A DNA stretch of 64,000 nucleotides, taken from contig NZ_CANMJE010000002.1 in NCBI RefSeq assembly GCF_947498095.1, positions 310,001 through 374,000 on the forward strand. Direction: 5' to 3'. Positions within the stretch are counted from its first letter, which is position 1, and every line of letters starts with the position of its first letter. The position numbers and the translations under genes are program-made. This DNA is from an uncultured Shimia sp. (lineage in GTDB: Bacteria > Pseudomonadota > Alphaproteobacteria > Rhodobacterales > Rhodobacteraceae). Positions 12,938 to 24,214 of this stretch are shown here, in pieces. The notes beneath the pieces were generated by a model. The model was not told the origin of the DNA and ran no database searches. It was given only the letters and a program-made list of their open reading frames with translations.

Positions 12938-14203
12938 ATGTCCGAAGCGGCCCACCTAGAAATTCCCGAGGATCCCCGGCTCACACACAATATCACGTGG
13001 TTCGCACGGGCGTTGCGTAAGGCCGGGCTGCGTATCGGGCCGGGTCGGATTATCGACGCAGTGCGCGCGGTTGAGGCGGCAGGTTTCACCTCAAAACAAG
13101 ATTTCTATTGGACTTTGCACGCCTGTTTTGTGTCCCGGCCCGAACATCGCGCTGTGTTTGCTCAGGTTTTTCGCCTCTATTGGCGCGATCCTCAGTTTCT
13201 TGAGCATATGATGGCGGCACTGTTACCTGCAGTACGCGGCGTTCAGGAAGAGCGTGCGGCCAACGCGGGCGAAAAACGGGCAGCCGAGGCATTGCTGGAT
13301 GGTGTTGAGCGCGATTTGCCTAAGACGTCTGAGCAAGAAAATGACGGTGAGACGCAGATCGAGATTGATGCGTCACTGACCATGTCGTCCGAGGAACGTC
13401 TGCGCAGCCTCGACTTTGAGCAGATGAGCACCGATGAGATCGCCGCCGCCAAACGTATGTTGGCGCGCCTGAACCTGCCCGTGAAACCCATTCTGTCGCG
13501 ACGTGGGATACCTGATCTGCACGGAGCGCGCGCCGATTGGCGACGGACTCTGAGGGCGGCGATGCGTCAGGGGGGGGACATCCAGACTCTCTCTCGGCAA
13601 AAGCCACGTCCTCGCTGGCCCAATTTGGTGGTGCTCTGCGATATCTCCGGCTCAATGAGCCAATACAGCCGCATGGTTTTGCATTTTCTTCATGCCGTTG
13701 CGAACCAGAAAGGCGCGGGCTGGGCGCGTGTTTATGGCTTTACCTTTGGAACCCGGCTGACAAATATCTCGCGCCATTTGGCTACCCGTGACGTCGATCA
13801 CGCGCTGGCCTCGGCCGGTGCCGAGGCTCAGGATTGGGAGGGTGGTACCCGCATTGGCGATTGCCTGCACAGCTTCAATCGCGATTGGTCACGACGGGTC
13901 ATGGGGCAGGGCGCTGTTGTGCTGCTGATCACCGATGGTCTGGATCGTGGTGACCCAAAGGCTTTGGCGCGTGAGATGCAACGATTACACCTGAGTGCGC
14001 GGCGACTGATCTGGTTGAACCCTTTGTTACGCTGGGATGGTTTTGCCCCCAAAGCGCAGGGCATTCAAACAATGCTGCCGCATGTAGACAGTTTCCGAGC
14101 TGGCCATTCGATAGCCTCTTTGGAAGATCTTGCGTCAGCGATTTCGCGTCCCGACGATGCCGGGGAAAAGGCGCGTCTGATGGCGAGCCTCGGCGCAGGT
14201 TAA
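12938..14203 (+). CDS. coxE: VWA domain protein (CoxE-like)
   Basis: A 421-residue CoxE-like protein. The C-terminal half carries a von Willebrand A domain with the MIDAS start VVLCDISGSMSQ (about residues 229-240), and the Asp-x-Ser-x-Ser metal-binding pattern is intact; a second part DITDGLDRGD fits the distal MIDAS site. The N-terminal half (Arg-Ala-Leu-Arg-Lys-Ala-Gly-Leu) is typical of the family. It partners with the MoxR ATPase encoded just upstream, in maturation of the molybdenum hydroxylase encoded further on. Confidence 0.82.
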   Translation: MSEAAHLEIPEDPRLTHNITWFARALRKAGLRIGPGRIIDAVRAVEAAGFTSKQDFYWTLHACFVSRPEHRAVFAQVFRLYWRDPQFLEHMMAALLPAVRGVQEERAANAGEKRAAEALLDGVERDLPKTSEQENDGETQIEIDASLTMSSEERLRSLDFEQMSTDEIAAAKRMLARLNLPVKPILSRRGIPDLHGARADWRRTLRAAMRQGGDIQTLSRQKPRPRWPNLVVLCDISGSMSQYSRMVLHFLHAVANQKGAGWARVYGFTFGTRLTNISRHLATRDVDHALASAGAEAQDWEGGTRIGDCLHSFNRDWSRRVMGQGAVVLLITDGLDRGDPKALAREMQRLHLSARRLIWLNPLLRWDGFAPKAQGIQTMLPHVDSFRAGHSIASLEDLASAISRPDDAGEKARLMASLGAG

Positions 14204-14551: not shown

Positions 14552-15625
14552 CTATTGCGAGTTTTCGGCAAGCATTTCCATAGCCTCGTGCGAGCCAAAG
14601 AGGCTAAAGGCAAAAGTTCTGGCCTGAGCATTTGACGTTGTTGCACGGGTCTGAAAGCGAAAAACGATGGCGGCTCCGGCTTTGATGGCCTCCAAAGAAG
14701 ACTCCCTGCTGTCTCGGGGAAGCGTCAGCACTATCCGCTGAATTTGGCTGCCCGCAGCGTCTTTATCAGATGTTATGCAACTGTCTTGCTGGCAGGACAT
14801 AACAGGGATCTGAACCAGATCACCGTTGCCAGGGTCCACGTGGACGTCAAAAAACCGCACAATAGGATCGGCTGAGACGACGCTCATTCCCAGCAACAAG
14901 CGATTGAACAAGGGGTCAACACCAACAAAGACCCGCCCCAATGGAAGACCGCGATCGAAGTATTCCCAATAGGCCATCCGCATGCCGCTGAAATGCGTGC
15001 TGTATTGGGTGAAGCTCCACGGATGTTGATTGGGGTGAGGTCGGCTTGTGGGGATGCTCGCCTGTTCTAGTTGATCTCTTAGCCGTTCGATGTCTTTTCC
15101 ATCGGCCCCTAACTCCAACGCCAAGTGTAACATCTCGCGAGCCCGTGTCGGATTTTTGGGCATGTGCGTCCCGCTGACGTACTCAAGCCCCAGCGCGATC
15201 GCTGCGCCACCATATTGCTGTCGCATTGCGCGATAGAAATAGTCATGCGCATAGTCGTGATCCTGCACCACCAAAAGCCCTTTGGTAAGTCGCTTGGCAT
15301 AGTTCAACAGGGCGATTGGGTAGCCAGCCTGCGCAGACCCGTATTGTAAATCCACTGCAGCACTTTGAGGGTAATCTTTGTAGTTACATTTTTTGGTCAG
15401 GATGAGCCAAGCCATGCTGTTCATCGCAACCGGATGGTTTTCCATCATTGCTTTGCTACGCAATTCCTCAATCGCACCTCTATCTTCTTGGCACGCGCGT
15501 TTTGAGAGAGCTGAGTAATACTCACGCTGCTCTTGCAACTGAGGTTCAAGGGTCTCAGCCAAAGCGGGTGTTGCGATTGCAAAAAACAGGACAAGGCGAG
15601 CGGCGTGCAAGATGGGGTAAGGCAT
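14552..15625 (-). CDS. Secreted SEL1/TPR-like repeat protein
   Basis: A 357-residue protein with a signal peptide (residues 1-23, cut after PALAE-type Ala). Residues about 60-190 contain SEL1-like helical repeats (for example SMAWLILTKKCN...AAVDLQYGSAQAGYPIALLNYAKRL and GGAAIALGLEYVSGTH), the type used for periplasmic protein contacts. The C-terminal 160 residues form a domain I do not recognise. It is on the strand opposite to the surrounding cox cluster genes and divergent from xdhC, with no evident tie to them. Confidence 0.65.
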   Translation of the reverse strand: MPYPILHAARLVLFFAIATPALAETLEPQLQEQREYYSALSKRACQEDRGAIEELRSKAMMENHPVAMNSMAWLILTKKCNYKDYPQSAAVDLQYGSAQAGYPIALLNYAKRLTKGLLVVQDHDYAHDYFYRAMRQQYGGAAIALGLEYVSGTHMPKNPTRAREMLHLALELGADGKDIERLRDQLEQASIPTSRPHPNQHPWSFTQYSTHFSGMRMAYWEYFDRGLPLGRVFVGVDPLFNRLLLGMSVVSADPIVRFFDVHVDPGNGDLVQIPVMSCQQDSCITSDKDAAGSQIQRIVLTLPRDSRESSLEAIKAGAAIVFRFQTRATTSNAQARTFAFSLFGSHEAMEMLAENSQ

Positions 15626-15768
15626 TCTGGTGTCCTCTAGCGTGTTTGCCCCAAAATTTGTCAGCTTTTTGTCTCATGTCAATTCCATGTCCATGGGGTT
15701 GAGTGGCAGCTCTGGCTTGTCTTCAACGCACTCAAAGCCCATCTTGTGGCTCTATGAATGAGGATGAC

Positions 15769-16737
15769 ATGAAACACACTGCACGAGGTGCCCCGGAACT
15801 GGCACTGGATTGGCACCGCGCAGGACGTGGGGCTGCTCTGGCGACTGTGATTGAGACATGGGGATCAGCACCGCGTCGCACGGGGTCTCAGATGGTGGTC
15901 TCCGGGGATGGACAGATCGAGGGATCGGTGTCTGGCGGCTGTGTCGAAGGCGCGGTGATGGTCGAAGCCTTGGAGTCACTTGAGGATGGCAAGGGGCGGT
16001 TGCTGGAGTTTGGTGTCAGCGACGGAGATGCTTTTGCTGTTGGACTGGCCTGCGGAGGAACTATCCGGGTTCTGGTGGAACCCGTGGGCGCAGTGTTGGC
16101 AGAAGATGTTTTGCAGGAGCTGGTCACCGCACGGGCAGAGCGGCGCCCCGTCGCCTATGTCTGCGATCCGTCGACTGGTGGTGGGATGTTGACCTGCGAG
16201 GGTCATGAAACGCAGTTTCGAATGGACCGATCAGGCGTCGAAGAGAGCGGCGAATTTGTTGCCATTCATAACCCGCCTTTGCGAGTTGCCATTGTCGGAG
16301 CCGTGCATATCGCGCAGGCGCTAGTCCCAATGGCGCGGATTGCAGGCTATGATCCAATTATCGTCGATCCGCGCAGTGCATTTGGCTCTGAGGCGCGGTT
16401 TCCCGGCGAAACCATCTTGGAAGACTGGCCGGACGAAGCCATGCAACAGATTGGGCTGGATACCCGAACCGCGCTGGTTTTGCTGACCCATGATCCCAAA
16501 CTGGACGATCCGGCGCTGCAGATCGCCCTGCGATCAGACGTGTTCTACATCGGTGCGCTGGGCTCAAAACGCACCCATGCATCGCGCGTGCAGCGGCTCT
16601 CCGAGGCTGGGTTCTCAGAGACTGAGATCGCACGCATTCACGGCCCCGTTGGCTTGGACATCGGGGCAGCAAGCCCATCTGAGATTGCCCTGTCGATCCT
16701 GTCTGAAATGGTTCAGGTTCTGAGGATGGGCGCATGA
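15769..16737 (+). CDS. xdhC: XdhC/CoxI family maturation protein
   Basis: XdhC-type proteins bind the molybdenum cofactor and help insert (and sulfurate) it into xanthine dehydrogenase-like enzymes. The N-terminal XdhC_CoxI domain has ETWGSAPRRTGSQM and SVSGGCVEGAV (Cys in the family motif), and the C-terminal Rossmann domain has AIVGAVHIAQ, DPR and GALGSKRTHASR. The start ATG 15769 follows GAGGATGAC; the open frame reaches upstream to 15703 without a better ribosome site. 322 residues fit a full-length two-domain XdhC. It overlaps the next gene by 4 bases. Confidence 0.88.
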   Translation: MKHTARGAPELALDWHRAGRGAALATVIETWGSAPRRTGSQMVVSGDGQIEGSVSGGCVEGAVMVEALESLEDGKGRLLEFGVSDGDAFAVGLACGGTIRVLVEPVGAVLAEDVLQELVTARAERRPVAYVCDPSTGGGMLTCEGHETQFRMDRSGVEESGEFVAIHNPPLRVAIVGAVHIAQALVPMARIAGYDPIIVDPRSAFGSEARFPGETILEDWPDEAMQQIGLDTRTALVLLTHDPKLDDPALQIALRSDVFYIGALGSKRTHASRVQRLSEAGFSETEIARIHGPVGLDIGAASPSEIALSILSEMVQVLRMGA

Positions 16738-17762
16738 GGTTTGGCCCTGTCGTGCTGGATCAGGCAGAGGGCGCAGTTCTGGCCCATTCTCTGCGTGCCT
16801 TGGACCGTCCTTATGACATGCAAATGACCTATCGAATTGCAAAGGGGACACGGCTTACACGAATCCACATTGATGATCTTGCCGCCGAAGGTCACGAGAC
16901 TGTGGTTGTGGCATTCCTTGAGGCTGGCGATGTGCCTGAAGACAGGGCAGCGGAACGCCTCGCGCAGGCTATTCTGACTGCGTCTAAGGGGCATGGACTT
17001 CGGGCCTCAGGCGCAGGTGCCGGGCGGGTCAACCTCTATACCACGGGCTGCGGCGTGGCCCGGGTGGATGCAAAGATCATCAACGCCATCAATGCGATTG
17101 ACCCGATGATAACGATCGCTACGGTTCCCGATTTCCACCGGGTAGATGCTGACGGGATGATCGCCACGATCAAAATCATTTCCTACGCGGTCCCCGAGAC
17201 CAATCTGGTCAAAGCCTGCGACATTGCCCAGGGTGGCCTGCGTGTAGCGCCGCCGGTTTTTGGTTCTGCCACGCTTATCGAGACAACGGTTGGGCCCGAG
17301 GCGCCGTCTGATAAGGGGCGAAGCGCTATGTTGGGGCGCGTTCAGCGCATGGGCATGATGCTTCAGGATCGCGTTTTGGTGCCACATCGCCCGGAGTCTT
17401 TGGCGGATGCGATCCAGAGCGCCACGGGCGAGATCGTTTTTGTTCTTACTGCCTCTGCCACGTCTGATGTGCATGATGTGGCGCCTGAAGCCGTGCGTCT
17501 TGCGGGCGGCGAGATTGAGCGGTTTGGCATGCCTGTTGATCCGGGTAATCTGTTGTTTCTGGGCCGTTGCAAGGGGCGTCCGGTGATCGGGCTGCCGGGT
17601 TGTGCACGCTCTCCGGCGCTGAACGGCGCAGATTGGGTTCTGGAACGGATCATCTGCGGAATTGATGTTACGGCGTCCGATATTGCTGCAATGGGAGTCG
17701 GCGGCTTGCTCAAGGAAATCCCGACTCGCCCCATGCCGCGCGAGCGTGTTGAGCGGGGTTAG
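16734..17762 (+). CDS. Molybdopterin-binding protein (MoCF domain)
   Basis: A 342-residue protein with an N-terminal region (RALDRPYDMQMTYRIAKGTRL) and a MoCF/MoeA-like molybdopterin-binding core containing FVLTASATSDVHDVAPEAV and GLPGCARSPALNGADWVLERI. Relatives in rhizobia often continue into a MobA/MocA-like nucleotidyltransferase domain of about 190 residues; here the protein ends at 342, so only the first half is present. It overlaps xdhC (ATGA) and likely handles Mo cofactor for CoxL. Exact reaction unknown. Confidence 0.75.
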   Translation: MRFGPVVLDQAEGAVLAHSLRALDRPYDMQMTYRIAKGTRLTRIHIDDLAAEGHETVVVAFLEAGDVPEDRAAERLAQAILTASKGHGLRASGAGAGRVNLYTTGCGVARVDAKIINAINAIDPMITIATVPDFHRVDADGMIATIKIISYAVPETNLVKACDIAQGGLRVAPPVFGSATLIETTVGPEAPSDKGRSAMLGRVQRMGMMLQDRVLVPHRPESLADAIQSATGEIVFVLTASATSDVHDVAPEAVRLAGGEIERFGMPVDPGNLLFLGRCKGRPVIGLPGCARSPALNGADWVLERIICGIDVTASDIAAMGVGGLLKEIPTRPMPRERVERG

Positions 17763-17892
17763 AAGGCTTAAAAATAGGCAATCGCAAGGGAATTTATTGA
17801 CCATTCAGAAAAAAAGGTTCTCAGAGTCGCCGCCCCGTGTTTAACTTCGAGGTCTATAAAGACCAAAAAGAAGAACAATCTGGGAGGAGCCA

Positions 17893-18378
17893 ATGTCACA
17901 GGTCACAATGACCGTGAATGGCAAGACTGCGTCCGGCGATGTCGAAGGCCGCACCTTGCTAAGCCACTTTTTGAGAGAAACACTAAACCTTACAGGAACC
18001 CATGTGGGCTGTGACACCAGCCAATGCGGGGCCTGTGTGGTGCACGTGAACGGAGAAGCCGTCAAAGCCTGCACGATGCTGGCTGCCGAAGCCGATGGTG
18101 CATCGGTCGACACGATTGAGGGGCAAGCCAATGCTGACGGATCCCTGAACGTGATCCAACAAGCGTTTCAGGACCATCATGGTCTGCAATGCGGGTTCTG
18201 CACCCCAGGCATGGTGATGTCGACCGCAGCTCTGCTCAAGGATAATCCGAAGCCAAGCGAGGCGGAAATTCGCGATTATCTGGAAGGTAATATCTGCCGG
18301 TGCACCGGGTATCACAACATCGTCAAGGCCATTCTGGCTGCGTCCGGTCAGGATGTTTCTGCAGTGGCGGCTGAATGA
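17893..18378 (+). CDS. coxS: CO dehydrogenase-like small [2Fe-2S] subunit
   Basis: A 161-residue iron-sulfur subunit of a molybdenum hydroxylase. The plant-type cluster cysteines are Cys40, Cys45, Cys48 and Cys60; the helical-domain cluster cysteines are Cys100, Cys103, Cys135 and Cys137 (QCGFCTPG and NICRCTGYH). It moves electrons from the Mo centre to the FAD subunit. It follows the molybdopterin-binding gene by 130 bases, with GGGAGGAG before the ATG, so it probably starts its own transcript. Two small genes separate it from coxL. Confidence 0.92.
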
Positions 18379-18740
18379 TGAGTTGGCTAAATGCGTTAGG
18401 ATTGAGCGCCGCGCTTGCTTTGCCATCTGCGCTGCTGGCCGAAGGGTATTCCGTCGTGGATCTTGGCGTAACAAGCAGCGAGAGCGATTGTATGGCTCAG
18501 GCAGAATCCGTGCTTGAAAGATACAAGGATACGCTTGGCGCCTCTAGTGTCAGCTCGGGCACCTGGGTTGTCTACGGCTGGGACATGGAGCCCGGCGATC
18601 AGGACGTTGTGATCACCTGTGTCGGGTCAACATCTGGGGAGGTTGAGAACCGTGCCGTTTTGGTAATTCACGGCGCCAAAAGCGAAACGGAGCGCTTTAC
18701 AACCCGCGACGTACTCAAGGGGTATTGGCAGGCATATTAA
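18375..18740 (+). CDS. Small secreted protein inside the cox operon, copy A
   Basis: A 121-residue protein with a signal peptide of about 22 residues and a mature part starting [10 protein letters not shown]. Two cysteines in the mature part (in SDCMAQ and ITCVGS) could form a disulfide in the periplasm. Shared with copy B are [20 protein letters not shown] and the C-terminal KGYW-x-AY. Its ATG overlaps the coxS stop codon, so it is coupled to coxS. I know no function for the family; the position suggests a link to the hydroxylase or to its inducer. Confidence 0.7.
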
Positions 18741-18805
18741 GGCAAATGCTTGCTAATACCGGAACTTGAAATCACGACACATTTATCGTTTGGGAGGGAA
18801 TTTTC

Positions 18806-19216
18806 ATGCTAAAACAAGAAGGTAGGATCGTTAGCTCAAAGCGATGCAAAGGCATGCGCCTAGCGTATCCCGTATTGGCAGCGACTTTGTCGAGCCCGTT
18901 GGTCGCGCAGGCCGAAGGGTATTCGACATCGGATCTTGGGGTTTTGTATGACAAAGCCGAGTGTATGGATCGCGCGGTTTCCGTCTTGGAAAGGTACAAA
19001 GATACTCTTGGCGCAAATAGCGTAAGCGCCGGCTCGTGGAATGTCTTTGCGTGGGATCTGGAGCCAGGGGATCAGGATGTGGTCATTTTGTGTGCCGGTT
19101 CCACGACAAATGACAACGAGTACCGACGTGCACTTTTGGTTGTTCATGGAGAAGCCAGCGAGACAGAACGTCTGGCAACCCGTGACGTGATCAAAGGTTA
19201 CTGGAACGCGTACTAG
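18806..19216 (+). CDS. Small secreted protein inside the cox operon, copy B
   Basis: A 136-residue paralogue of the protein encoded just upstream, mature part starting EGYSTSDLGV. Identical blocks include [29 protein letters not shown] and GYW, and the two cysteines align. It has a longer basic N-terminal region (MLKQEGRIVSSKRCKGMRL) before the hydrophobic signal segment. A strong ribosome site GGGAGGG lies 8 bases before the ATG, so it is translated independently. It is the second half of a tandem duplication between coxS and coxL. Confidence 0.7.
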   Translation: MLKQEGRIVSSKRCKGMRLAYPVLAATLSSPLVAQAEGYSTSDLGVLYDKAECMDRAVSVLERYKDTLGANSVSAGSWNVFAWDLEPGDQDVVILCAGSTTNDNEYRRALLVVHGEASETERLATRDVIKGYWNAY

Positions 19217-19299
19217 AAAATGAGCGCTGCAAGCGGGGAGGTTTGCTGCGCATCAAAACACCAATACGCGATATGCGTATGATTTAGGGGAGGACTACC

Positions 19300-21669
19300 A
19301 TGCCCAAAGATGGAGGCATCGGCGCCAGCTCAAAGCGGCGCGAGGACGTCCGGTTTTTGACCGGACAGGGAAACTACACGGATGACATCAATCAACAGGG
19401 TCAAACCTATGCGGTTTTTGCCCGCTCGAACGTCGCGAATGGCGTCATAAAATCTGTCGACACTTCGGCTGCAGAAGCCATGCCAGGTGTTCTGGCCGTC
19501 TTCACCGGCGAAGACTTTGTCGAGGTCGGTGGCAACCCTGCTGGCTGGTACATCGAAAGCCGTGATGGCACACCAATGAAAGAGCCTAAGCGCCCGGTTT
19601 TGGCCCACGGCAAGGCTCGCCATGTTGGGGATGCCTATGCCGCGGTGATTGCCGAGACGCTGGAACAAGCGCGTGATGCGGCAGAAGCTATCGACGCTGA
19701 CATCGAAGAGTTGCAAGCCGTTGCAACAGCCGAGGCAGCGCTGGCCGAAGGGGCCACGCTGGTTCATGACGAGATCGAAACCAACATGGTGTTCGACTGG
19801 GGCTGGATTGAGGACAATCGTGCCGCGACCGACGAGGCCATCAAAAATGCGCCGCATGTAACCACGCTGGAACTGGTCAACAATCGCCTTGTTCCAAACG
19901 CAATGGAGCCGCGGGCGTCAATTGGCGACTATAAGCCCGGCACGGGCGATTACACGCTGCACACAACGTCGCAGAACCCGCACCTCACGCGCCTGCTGAT
20001 CTCGGCCTTTGTGATGGGCATTCCCGAGAACAAGCTGACCGTGATTGCGCCGGATGTAGGGGGTGGTTTTGGTTCAAAAATCTACCACTACGGCGAAGAA
20101 GCGCTGGTTCTTGCAGCGGCTAAGAAACTTGGTCGTCCGGTAAAGTGGACAGCGGACAGGTCGGAAAGCTTCCTGACCGATGCGCATGGCCGCGATCACG
20201 TGACCAAGATCGAACTGGCGACCGAAGAAGACGGCACTTTTATCGCTATTCGCACGGAAACGCTGGCCAATGTCGGCGCGTACCTGTCGAACTTTGCGAC
20301 AGTGACGCCAACCTTCCTTCACGGCACGCTGATGGCAGGGAATTACACGGTTCCGCATGTCTATGTGAACCTCAAGGCCGTGTTGACCAATACGGCACCC
20401 GTAGATGCCTACCGTGGGGCAGGGCGACCTGAAGCGACCTATTCCATTGAGCGCGTCATCGACAAATGTGCGCGTGAACTCAACATGGATCCCATTGCGC
20501 TGCGTCGTAAGAACTTTATCAAACCTGATCAGTTCCCGTACACGACGCCTGTCGCGCTGGAATATGACATCGGCGATTATGATGCGGTGATGGACAAGTT
20601 GGAAGAGATCGGTGATCTCGCCGGGTTTGCCAAGCGTCGTGCCGATAGCGAAGCGCGTGGCAAGCTGCGCGGTCTGGGCGTGAACAGCTATATCGAGGCT
20701 TGCGGTATTGCGCCCTCGAACCTTGTTGGCGTTCTGGGCGCGCGTGTCGGTCTTTATGATGCTGCCACAGTGCGTGTGAATGCCACCGGGTCTCTGGCGG
20801 TGATGGTCGGGGCGCACAGCCACGGTCAGGGTCACGAGACGGCCTTTCCGCAAGTTGTTGCGGATATGCTGGGCATCGACGAAGGTCAGATCGAGATTGT
20901 GCATGGCGATACCAGCAAAATCCCGTTTGGCATGGGGACCTATGGATCACGCTCGCTTGCAGTCTGTGGCTCTGCGGTCGTGAAGGCCACGGAAAAGATC
21001 ATCAACAAAGCCAAGAAGATCGCAGCCCATATGTTGGAAGCGTCGGACGCAGATATCGAGTTGAAGGACGGCCAGTTCACGGTTGCCGGAACGGATAAAT
21101 CTGTTGCCTGGGGCGAAGTCGCTCTGAAAGCCTATGTACCGCATCAGTTCCCAATCGAGGACATTGAGCCTGGGCTTGAAGAAACCGCATTTTATGATCC
21201 GGCCAACTTTACCTACCCATCTGGTGCCTATGCCTGCGAAGTCGAAGTTGACCCTGAAACCGGTAAAGTGACGATCGAACGTTTTGCGGCCGCGGATGAT
21301 TTCGGCAACGTTATCAACCCGATGATCGTCGAAGGTCAGGTGCACGGCGGGCTTGGTCAGGGAATTGGCCAAGCGCTGTTGGAAAACTGCACCTACGACA
21401 GTGATGGCCAACTTTTGAGTGCGTCTTACATGGACTATGCCATGCCGCGTGCGGATGATGTGCCGTTCTATTCGGTGGATCACTCAAGCCAGACGCCCTG
21501 CACGCACAATCCCTTGGGCGTAAAAGGCTGCGGTGAAGCCGGGGCCATCGGGTCGCCGCCGTCGGTGGTCAATGCCGTGGTCGACGCGTTGCAATCCGGG
21601 GGCCATGATGTGAGCCATATCGATATGCCTGTGTCGCCATCGCGCGTCTGGGCAGCAATGAACAAGTAA
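19300..21669 (+). CDS. coxL: CO dehydrogenase-like large molybdenum subunit, form II
   Basis: A 789-residue molybdenum hydroxylase large subunit. The active-site loop reads AYRGAGR (residues 370-376), the form II motif, instead of the AYxCSFR motif of true aerobic CO dehydrogenase (form I), so no Cu-ligating cysteine is present. The catalytic glutamate is Glu746 in KGCGEAGAIGSPP. Form II enzymes have uncertain and varied substrates. Length fits the family. It is followed by coxM after 12 bases, giving the order S-(two small genes)-L-M. Confidence 0.92.
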   Translation: MPKDGGIGASSKRREDVRFLTGQGNYTDDINQQGQTYAVFARSNVANGVIKSVDTSAAEAMPGVLAVFTGEDFVEVGGNPAGWYIESRDGTPMKEPKRPVLAHGKARHVGDAYAAVIAETLEQARDAAEAIDADIEELQAVATAEAALAEGATLVHDEIETNMVFDWGWIEDNRAATDEAIKNAPHVTTLELVNNRLVPNAMEPRASIGDYKPGTGDYTLHTTSQNPHLTRLLISAFVMGIPENKLTVIAPDVGGGFGSKIYHYGEEALVLAAAKKLGRPVKWTADRSESFLTDAHGRDHVTKIELATEEDGTFIAIRTETLANVGAYLSNFATVTPTFLHGTLMAGNYTVPHVYVNLKAVLTNTAPVDAYRGAGRPEATYSIERVIDKCARELNMDPIALRRKNFIKPDQFPYTTPVALEYDIGDYDAVMDKLEEIGDLAGFAKRRADSEARGKLRGLGVNSYIEACGIAPSNLVGVLGARVGLYDAATVRVNATGSLAVMVGAHSHGQGHETAFPQVVADMLGIDEGQIEIVHGDTSKIPFGMGTYGSRSLAVCGSAVVKATEKIINKAKKIAAHMLEASDADIELKDGQFTVAGTDKSVAWGEVALKAYVPHQFPIEDIEPGLEETAFYDPANFTYPSGAYACEVEVDPETGKVTIERFAAADDFGNVINPMIVEGQVHGGLGQGIGQALLENCTYDSDGQLLSASYMDYAMPRADDVPFYSVDHSSQTPCTHNPLGVKGCGEAGAIGSPPSVVNAVVDALQSGGHDVSHIDMPVSPSRVWAAMNK

Positions 21670-21681
21670 GGAGGACGGACC

Positions 21682-22461
21682 ATGTATGACTTTGACTTTG
21701 AAAAGCCCTCCAGCATTGCTGATGCGGTTGCGGCACTGGCCACAGAGGACGCACAGGCGCTGGGGGGTGGGCAAACCCTGATCCCCACGCTGAAACAGCG
21801 TCTGGCCAGCCCCTCGAAATTGGTGAGCCTGACCGGGATCGCCGAAATGCAAGGTGTCTGCGATGATGGCGATGCCATCAGCGTTGGTGGCGCGACCGTG
21901 CATGCGGACGTAGCAGCCAGTGGCTTGATCCCGGCCTTGTCAGATCTTGCGGGCAATATTGGCGATCCAGCCGTGCGAAATCGCGGTACGATTGGCGGTT
22001 CCCTTGCCAACAACGATCCTTCGGCCTGTTACCCATCCGCAGCTCTGGGGTTGGGGGCGACGATCACCACAAATGCCCGATCGATTGCGGCGGATGACTA
22101 TTTCCAAGGCATGTTTGAGACGGCCCTGGACGAAGGTGAGATCATCACCTCGGTCAGCTTCCCCAAACCTCAGGCGGCGAACTATCAAAAGTTCGAACAG
22201 CCTGCCTCGCGCTTTGCGCTGGTCGGGGTGTTTGTCGCCAAGACGGCAGCGGGTGTGCGGGTAGCCGTCACCGGTGCGGCAGAAGAAGGCGTGCATCGCT
22301 GGGGAGCGGCAGAGGCTGCCCTGACGGCGAATTTCTCTGCGGATGCGGTGCCTGCAGCACCGTCGGCGGATGGTATGATCTCGGACCTTCACGGGTCGTC
22401 AGAGTACCGTGCACATCTGGTCGCGGTTCTGACACGTCGTGCCGTAGCTGCCTGTGCCTAG
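21682..22461 (+). CDS. coxM: CO dehydrogenase-like medium FAD subunit
   Basis: The FAD-binding subunit (259 residues) that passes electrons from the iron-sulfur subunit to the acceptor. FAD motifs are GGGQTLIP (near residue 32) and the segment NIGDPAVRNRGTIGG followed by SLANNDPSAC. A strong ribosome site GGAGGA precedes the ATG. The hairpin just after the stop (22470-22488) suggests it ends the operon. Confidence 0.93.
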   Translation: MYDFDFEKPSSIADAVAALATEDAQALGGGQTLIPTLKQRLASPSKLVSLTGIAEMQGVCDDGDAISVGGATVHADVAASGLIPALSDLAGNIGDPAVRNRGTIGGSLANNDPSACYPSAALGLGATITTNARSIAADDYFQGMFETALDEGEIITSVSFPKPQAANYQKFEQPASRFALVGVFVAKTAAGVRVAVTGAAEEGVHRWGAAEAALTANFSADAVPAAPSADGMISDLHGSSEYRAHLVAVLTRRAVAACA

Positions 22462-23662: not shown

Positions 23663-24214
23663 TTACTTTGGAAGCGGGCCGATCATCATGATCATCTGGC
23701 GGCCCTCCATCTTAGGCATGTTTTCGATCTTGCCCAACTCGAGATTTTTGACATCTTCTGCCACGCGCTCAAGCAGTTCGCGCCCCAAGTTCTGGTGCGC
23801 CATTTCACGACCACGGAAGCGCAGGGTGATCTTTACCTTGTCGCCTTTTTCCAGGAACTTGATGACGTTGCGCATTTTCACATCGTAGTCATGCGTGTCG
23901 GTGTTGGGGCGGAATTTGACCTCTTTGACCTGAATGGTGGTCTGCTTTTTGCGGGCCTCGGATTCGCGCTTTTGCTGTTCGTATTTGAACTTGCCGAAAT
24001 CCATGATCTTGCAGACGGGCGGCTTCGCATTGGGCGAGATTTCCACCAGGTCCAGACCTGCCTCTTCTGCGAGGCGCATGCCTTCGCGAGGGCTTACAAC
24101 TCCTACGTTTTCACCCTCGGCGCCAATCAGGCGAATCTCGGGATCGCGGATGCGGTCGTTGACGCGGGGGCCGGTGTCGCGCTGCGGAGGCGCATTGTGG
24201 GGTCTGCGGGCTAT
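23663..24214 (-). CDS. infC: Translation initiation factor IF-3, ATA start
   Basis: IF-3 keeps ribosomal subunits apart and checks start codons. The first ATG (24079) would remove 45 residues of the N-terminal domain. The frame continues upstream through [20 protein letters not shown] and [21 protein letters not shown] and begins best at ATA 24214, which follows AAGGA by 8 bases; an in-frame TGA lies upstream. This gives 183 residues, the usual length. Rare start codons (ATT, ATC, ATA) are a known trait of infC and allow IF-3 to repress its own synthesis. The C-terminal domain ([21 protein letters not shown]) is intact. Confidence 0.88.

Follow-up and report, generated by a model that had tools for sequence, protein, structure and literature searches.

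The analyzed stretch, hereafter the window, consists of 64,000 nucleotides from a contig of an uncultured Shimia sp. and carries a cox locus on its forward strand. Profile matches identified coxS, encoding the [2Fe-2S] subunit (17893–18378), coxL, encoding the molybdenum subunit and provided with its own GGGGAGGA (19300–21669), and coxM, encoding the FAD subunit (21682–22461). Upstream of coxS, Pfam models identified a coxE-like (VWA_CoxE) gene (12938–14203), an XdhC/CoxI-family maturation gene (15703–16737) and a molybdopterin-binding-domain (MoCF_biosynth) gene (16734–17762), the last with 26.3 bits just missing the cut-off of 26.6. The locus adjoins a reverse-strand open reading frame (23663–24079) taken from its sequence to be infC (initiation factor IF3), which served as the syntenic anchor. 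The order coxS–coxL–coxM is interrupted by two small genes on the same strand as the flanking coxS and coxL: gene A (18375–18740; 121 aa) and gene B (18806–19216; 136 aa). The ATG of gene A overlaps the TGA of coxS (ATGATG), and purine-rich ribosome sites read from the sequence precede gene B (GGGAGGG, 18792–18798) and coxL, one each; an earlier note on this DNA had described both the overlap and the separate ribosome site of B, and both hold. Promoter- and terminator-like sites within 17700–19400 showed no excess over shuffled sequences, and the Rfam scan of the same positions gave nothing usable.

The CoxL of the window has the motif AYRGAGR, common to all 99 CoxL sequences compared, and with TIGR02416, the model of form I, it scores 652.6 bits, below the cut-off of 991.15. 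The operon is therefore of form II as defined by the AYRGAGR motif in passages of PMC13203968 and PMC13240472. It resembles other form II coxSLM operons in the S–L–M order, in this motif and in the XdhC/CoxI, MoCF and CoxE genes alongside.

Genes A and B are tandem paralogues, as the earlier note had proposed, with 63% identity over 113 aa, and all the motifs it quoted are present in both products. They are the sole two family matches in their own genome and sisters on the family tree (support 95/100). Change between their mature parts is mostly synonymous (pS 0.76, pN 0.23), and since the synonymous sites are nearly saturated the duplication is not very recent. Each mature part includes exactly two cysteines (residues 39 and 82 in A, 53 and 96 in B); the same number was found in all 28 family members compared, and in the alignment of 20 members the two cysteine columns were invariant throughout and were the only invariant columns, which extends the earlier observation of two aligned cysteines to the members compared. 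Signal peptides were called by rule, as a hydrophobic stretch with Ala preceding the conserved mature start, and such a start was present in all 28 members. Judged by this rule both products are probably exported, and the conserved cysteines would probably form a disulfide. A point against export is the start of A, which lacks positive charge: residues 1–12 include no Lys or Arg, which is unusual for signal peptides. Unlike BamC-type periplasmic lipoproteins, none of the 28 members has a lipobox. A and B are genuine genes, their family bears signal peptides by this rule, and the first of them overlaps coxS.

The protein family defined here has no model in Pfam, which gave only sub-threshold matches (e.g. 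Crystall, E 0.2, and SNF, E 0.022), nor in NCBIfam, and PHROGs gave nothing usable. No PDB sequence matched at E up to 1, and the plasmid and phage collections held no match to A. A match of one of 20 members to the PADLOC model SAVED_TM (E 0.0021) was taken as chance. The predicted structures of A and B both have the order E-H-E-E-E-E-H, with mean pLDDT of 87.6 and 84.2, respectively. Structure comparison with VIA-align gave Z values from 7.8 to 10.9 (the best 10.8 and 10.9), phosphoglucomutase C-terminal domains ranking first and KA1, DUF4468 and BamC lower, while Foldseek gave no match at E ≤ 0.001 (best E 0.008). The predicted beta-alpha-beta4-alpha order is shared with the phosphoglucomutase C-terminal domain, KA1, the BamC N-terminal domain, DUF4468 and Flpp3, a group called "TBP-like"; unlike these domains, A and B have no PDB sequence match, and the arrangement is a common one from which no function was transferred. 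CoxG is an accessory of form I systems, and A and B are similarly small accessories in a cox operon, but their products, unlike CoxG, begin with a signal-peptide-like stretch and conserve two cysteines. Foldseek matched the fold of the COXG-labelled chain 2ns9 weakly (E 0.066; query TM-score 0.35), and the Pfam COXG profile matched none of 20 members at E up to 0.1 and neither A nor B at E up to 10.

Across the genome draws, the A/B family was found only in the taxonomic family of the window. Profile search of that family matched 23 of 394 genomes and the order draw 27 of 390, all within the same family; leaving out G120, whose match (E 7.4E-4) has an in-frame stop, the counts used are 22 and 26, and G017 (E 7.9E-8) was retained as a doubtful relative. 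The class draw matched one genome of 385, the window's own. At most 11 candidates were scored per genome in these three draws, and weaker homologues were possibly missed, whereas in the genus draws every candidate was scored. The gene was carried by one of 25 genomes in the window's genus and by one of 20 in the genus of G1012, and in genus g187 by all six, there between coxS and coxL.

Altogether 16 genomes have one or two family genes in the slot between coxS and coxL. The family draw included 29 homologous genes, ten of them in the slots of eight genomes (pairs in the window and G186, single genes in G032, G069, G080, G144, G352 and G353), five at the cox/infC locus without an orthologous coxL, and 14 elsewhere. 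The earlier note had held that homologues lying mostly away from cox genes would speak against it, and with 14 of 29 elsewhere this was found in part. Among the 26 genomes of the order draw, 11 had the gene in the slot, adding G907, G919, G922, G936, G952, G1011 and G1012; G049 had it without an orthologous coxL, and of the other 14, six entered the gene-context analysis, which covered all of the 26 except G804, G823, G829, G853, G880, G935, G960 and G1041. The genus search added G1042. The automatic gene calls include antisense frames in this GC-rich DNA, and gene placement rests on homology searches. The earlier statement that no cox operon with such a pair is known does not stand, as pairs exist also in four genomes of another genus (G186, G922, G952 and G1011). 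In the literature searched, no description was found of a gene between coxS and coxL. The slot gene overlaps coxS by stop and start in 11 of the 16 genomes, and in G352 and G907 it starts more than 20 nt past the coxS stop. The closest to those of the window, among the slot genes compared, is the single gene of G1012 (55–57% identity), and slot genes are often only about 30% identical to each other.

Most of the form II operons compared differ from that of the window in having no secreted-protein genes between S and L: 91 of the 99 coxS–coxL junctions measured were 9–187 nt long and empty, a ratio that is not a frequency because the seven filled junctions other than the window's were fetched for their homologue and the rest taken by coxL rank or from the window's genus. 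The remaining eight junctions, of 401–921 nt, were all filled by the A/B family. In the nearest congener, G394, whose CoxL is 94% identical to that of the window, the junction is 107 nt long and empty. It could not be credibly aligned with the 921 nt of the window, and the comparison favors neither acquisition by the window nor loss from G394.

On the coxL tree, constructed with a quick method, the eight carriers required seven changes, at least four of them forced by the starred branches; with shuffled carrier labels the mean was 7.8, and values as low occurred in 75 of 500 shuffles. The slot gene is scattered on the coxL tree. In the family tree, which includes long branches (L027, L035 and L036) and ten weak forks, a single clade of all slot genes was rejected (p-AU 2E-9), and a single origin of all cox-locus genes was not (p-AU 0.21). 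In three genome pairs of g187, dN/dS was 0–0.05 for slot gene a and 0.09–0.14 for slot gene b, compared with 0.02–0.04 for coxL and 0.10–0.17 for coxS, which indicates that the slot genes are working genes under purifying selection.

The co-occurrence of the family with form II coxL, which the earlier note had proposed as a check, was not found. Among the genomes of the family draw, coxL was no commoner in those with a homologue (16 of 22) than in the others (276 of 372; Fisher p 0.81), as called at E ≤ 1E-200, a threshold also admitting CoxL of 57–60% identity. In five genomes the cox/infC locus contains the gene but no orthologous coxL; the best coxL-like match is 57% identical in G208, 44% in G049, 39% in G243 and 30% in G334, and none was found in G214. 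The layouts of these loci vary. G353, with the enzyme genes, has infC followed by coxM–coxL–gene–coxS–mob–xdhC–coxE and a glycosyltransferase gene 2.9 kb further on; G334 has only infC, the gene and the glycosyltransferase gene; and in G214 a methyltransferase-like gene stands between infC and the gene, with other frames before the glycosyltransferase gene. The small genes of these three genomes form one clade (support 98/99). G049 has the layout coxS–gene–coxM and G208 xdhC–mob–gene. Two of the five assemblies (74 and 78%), those of G214 and G334, are not complete, but both contain the locus itself. Since the gene persists in a few bacteria that lack the enzyme, its product is probably no essential component of the CO-dehydrogenase-like enzyme. 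Most simply, ancestors would already have had the gene at the locus, and in some lineages it would have survived the loss of the enzyme; transfer by way of the conserved flanks is a possible alternative.

Part of the family lies in another setting. A second subfamily (GRSEWTIGGYDLR and similar) occupies a different, conserved neighbourhood, which was counted for independence from CoxSLM: L032, L033, L037 and L104–L106 have common neighbours, those of L105 being NYN, TetR, HAD, rimP and nusA genes. The Pfam scan was made on L105 and the others were tied in by BLAST clusters, while L207, L209 and L210 were placed in this subfamily by similarity only.

We lean, at slightly better than even confidence, towards A and B being small periplasmic accessories with a role independent of CoxSLM, whose translation would be coupled to that of coxS in a minority of lineages. 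The two genes would stem from the gene of a small envelope protein that was duplicated in tandem in this lineage. Their signal peptides would export the products to the periplasm, where each would adopt a beta-alpha-beta4-alpha fold about 100 residues long that a single disulfide probably closes, and where ligand or protein binding would be the most likely role. In the minority of genomes in which the gene lies in the slot and overlaps coxS, it would be made whenever the operon is made, and its job would need no CoxSLM enzyme. Two points weigh against independence: the purifying selection and the repeated overlap with coxS, in genes so divergent, would also fit a role with the enzyme, and the gene in the five genomes without an orthologous coxL may have switched role.

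It is unlikely, in our judgement, that A and B are instead passenger genes, for example of a periplasmic immunity or inhibitor protein, spreading by recombination through the coxS and coxL flanks and using the operon only for expression. The scattering on the coxL tree (seven changes for eight carriers, against a mean of 7.8 with shuffled labels) would agree with such spreading, as would the divergence and occasional duplication of the slot genes and their presence in a single genome in each of two genera (1/25 and 1/20). Against it, g187 keeps the gene in six of six genomes, A is without homologues in the plasmid and phage collections, and a single origin at the cox/infC locus was not rejected. 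As to immunity families, the analysis extended to the library scans.

A dedicated partnership with the enzyme, as proposed in the earlier note, has a rather slim chance of being right. In this interpretation A and B would serve the form II enzyme in the periplasm by substrate sensing, binding or delivery or by transmembrane electron transfer. What stands of the earlier interpretation is that the genes are real, that they overlap coxS and that the slot is reused in 16 genomes; the use of the slot, with its 11 stop/start overlaps, and the purifying selection on its genes would suit a partner. The partnership itself found no support: the gene is kept in the five genomes without an orthologous coxL, and it does not co-occur with coxL. 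The N-termini of CoxS, CoxL and CoxM, as read, have no signal peptide, and enzyme and A/B would consequently occupy different compartments. Absence from most related operons, which the note had named as a result that would count against it, was also found in part, as 91 of the 99 junctions, including that of G394, lack the gene and 24 of the 25 genomes of the window's genus do not carry it. The boldest version of the partnership deserves still less credence: a binding protein closed by a disulfide and translated together with the iron-sulfur subunit would link the cytoplasmic enzyme to a periplasmic signal or substrate in some bacteria of the window's family, as the first form II cox component located in the periplasm. 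That A and B are chance reading frames is practically excluded by the conserved protein family and the synonymous-biased change between genomes, and nothing in support of it was found.

A secreted protein overlapping coxS in several genera offers a way into the conditions and purposes of the operon's use, and the genomes bearing the gene without the enzyme let its dependence on coxSLM be tested.

Some further differences were observed at and around the locus. In three genomes the cox/infC locus includes a PBP_like_2 binding protein (L029 1698–2444, L031 4607–5404 and L038 6154–6903), possibly a tungstate or phosphate binder. Between coxE and xdhC the window has a reverse-strand gene (14552–15625) whose product starts like a signal peptide and matches Sel1 weakly, below the cut-off (26.3 bits), unlike G394, in which coxE adjoins xdhC directly. 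The molybdopterin-binding gene of the window is only 52% identical to the versions of G394 and G409, the neighbouring xdhC being 80–83% identical. Also the subunits differ in their placement (17893–21669; L109): the CoxS sequences of the window and G394 are closest to those of other congeners, and their CoxL sequences are in another clade than those of the other congeners examined, an apparent exchange of coxL.
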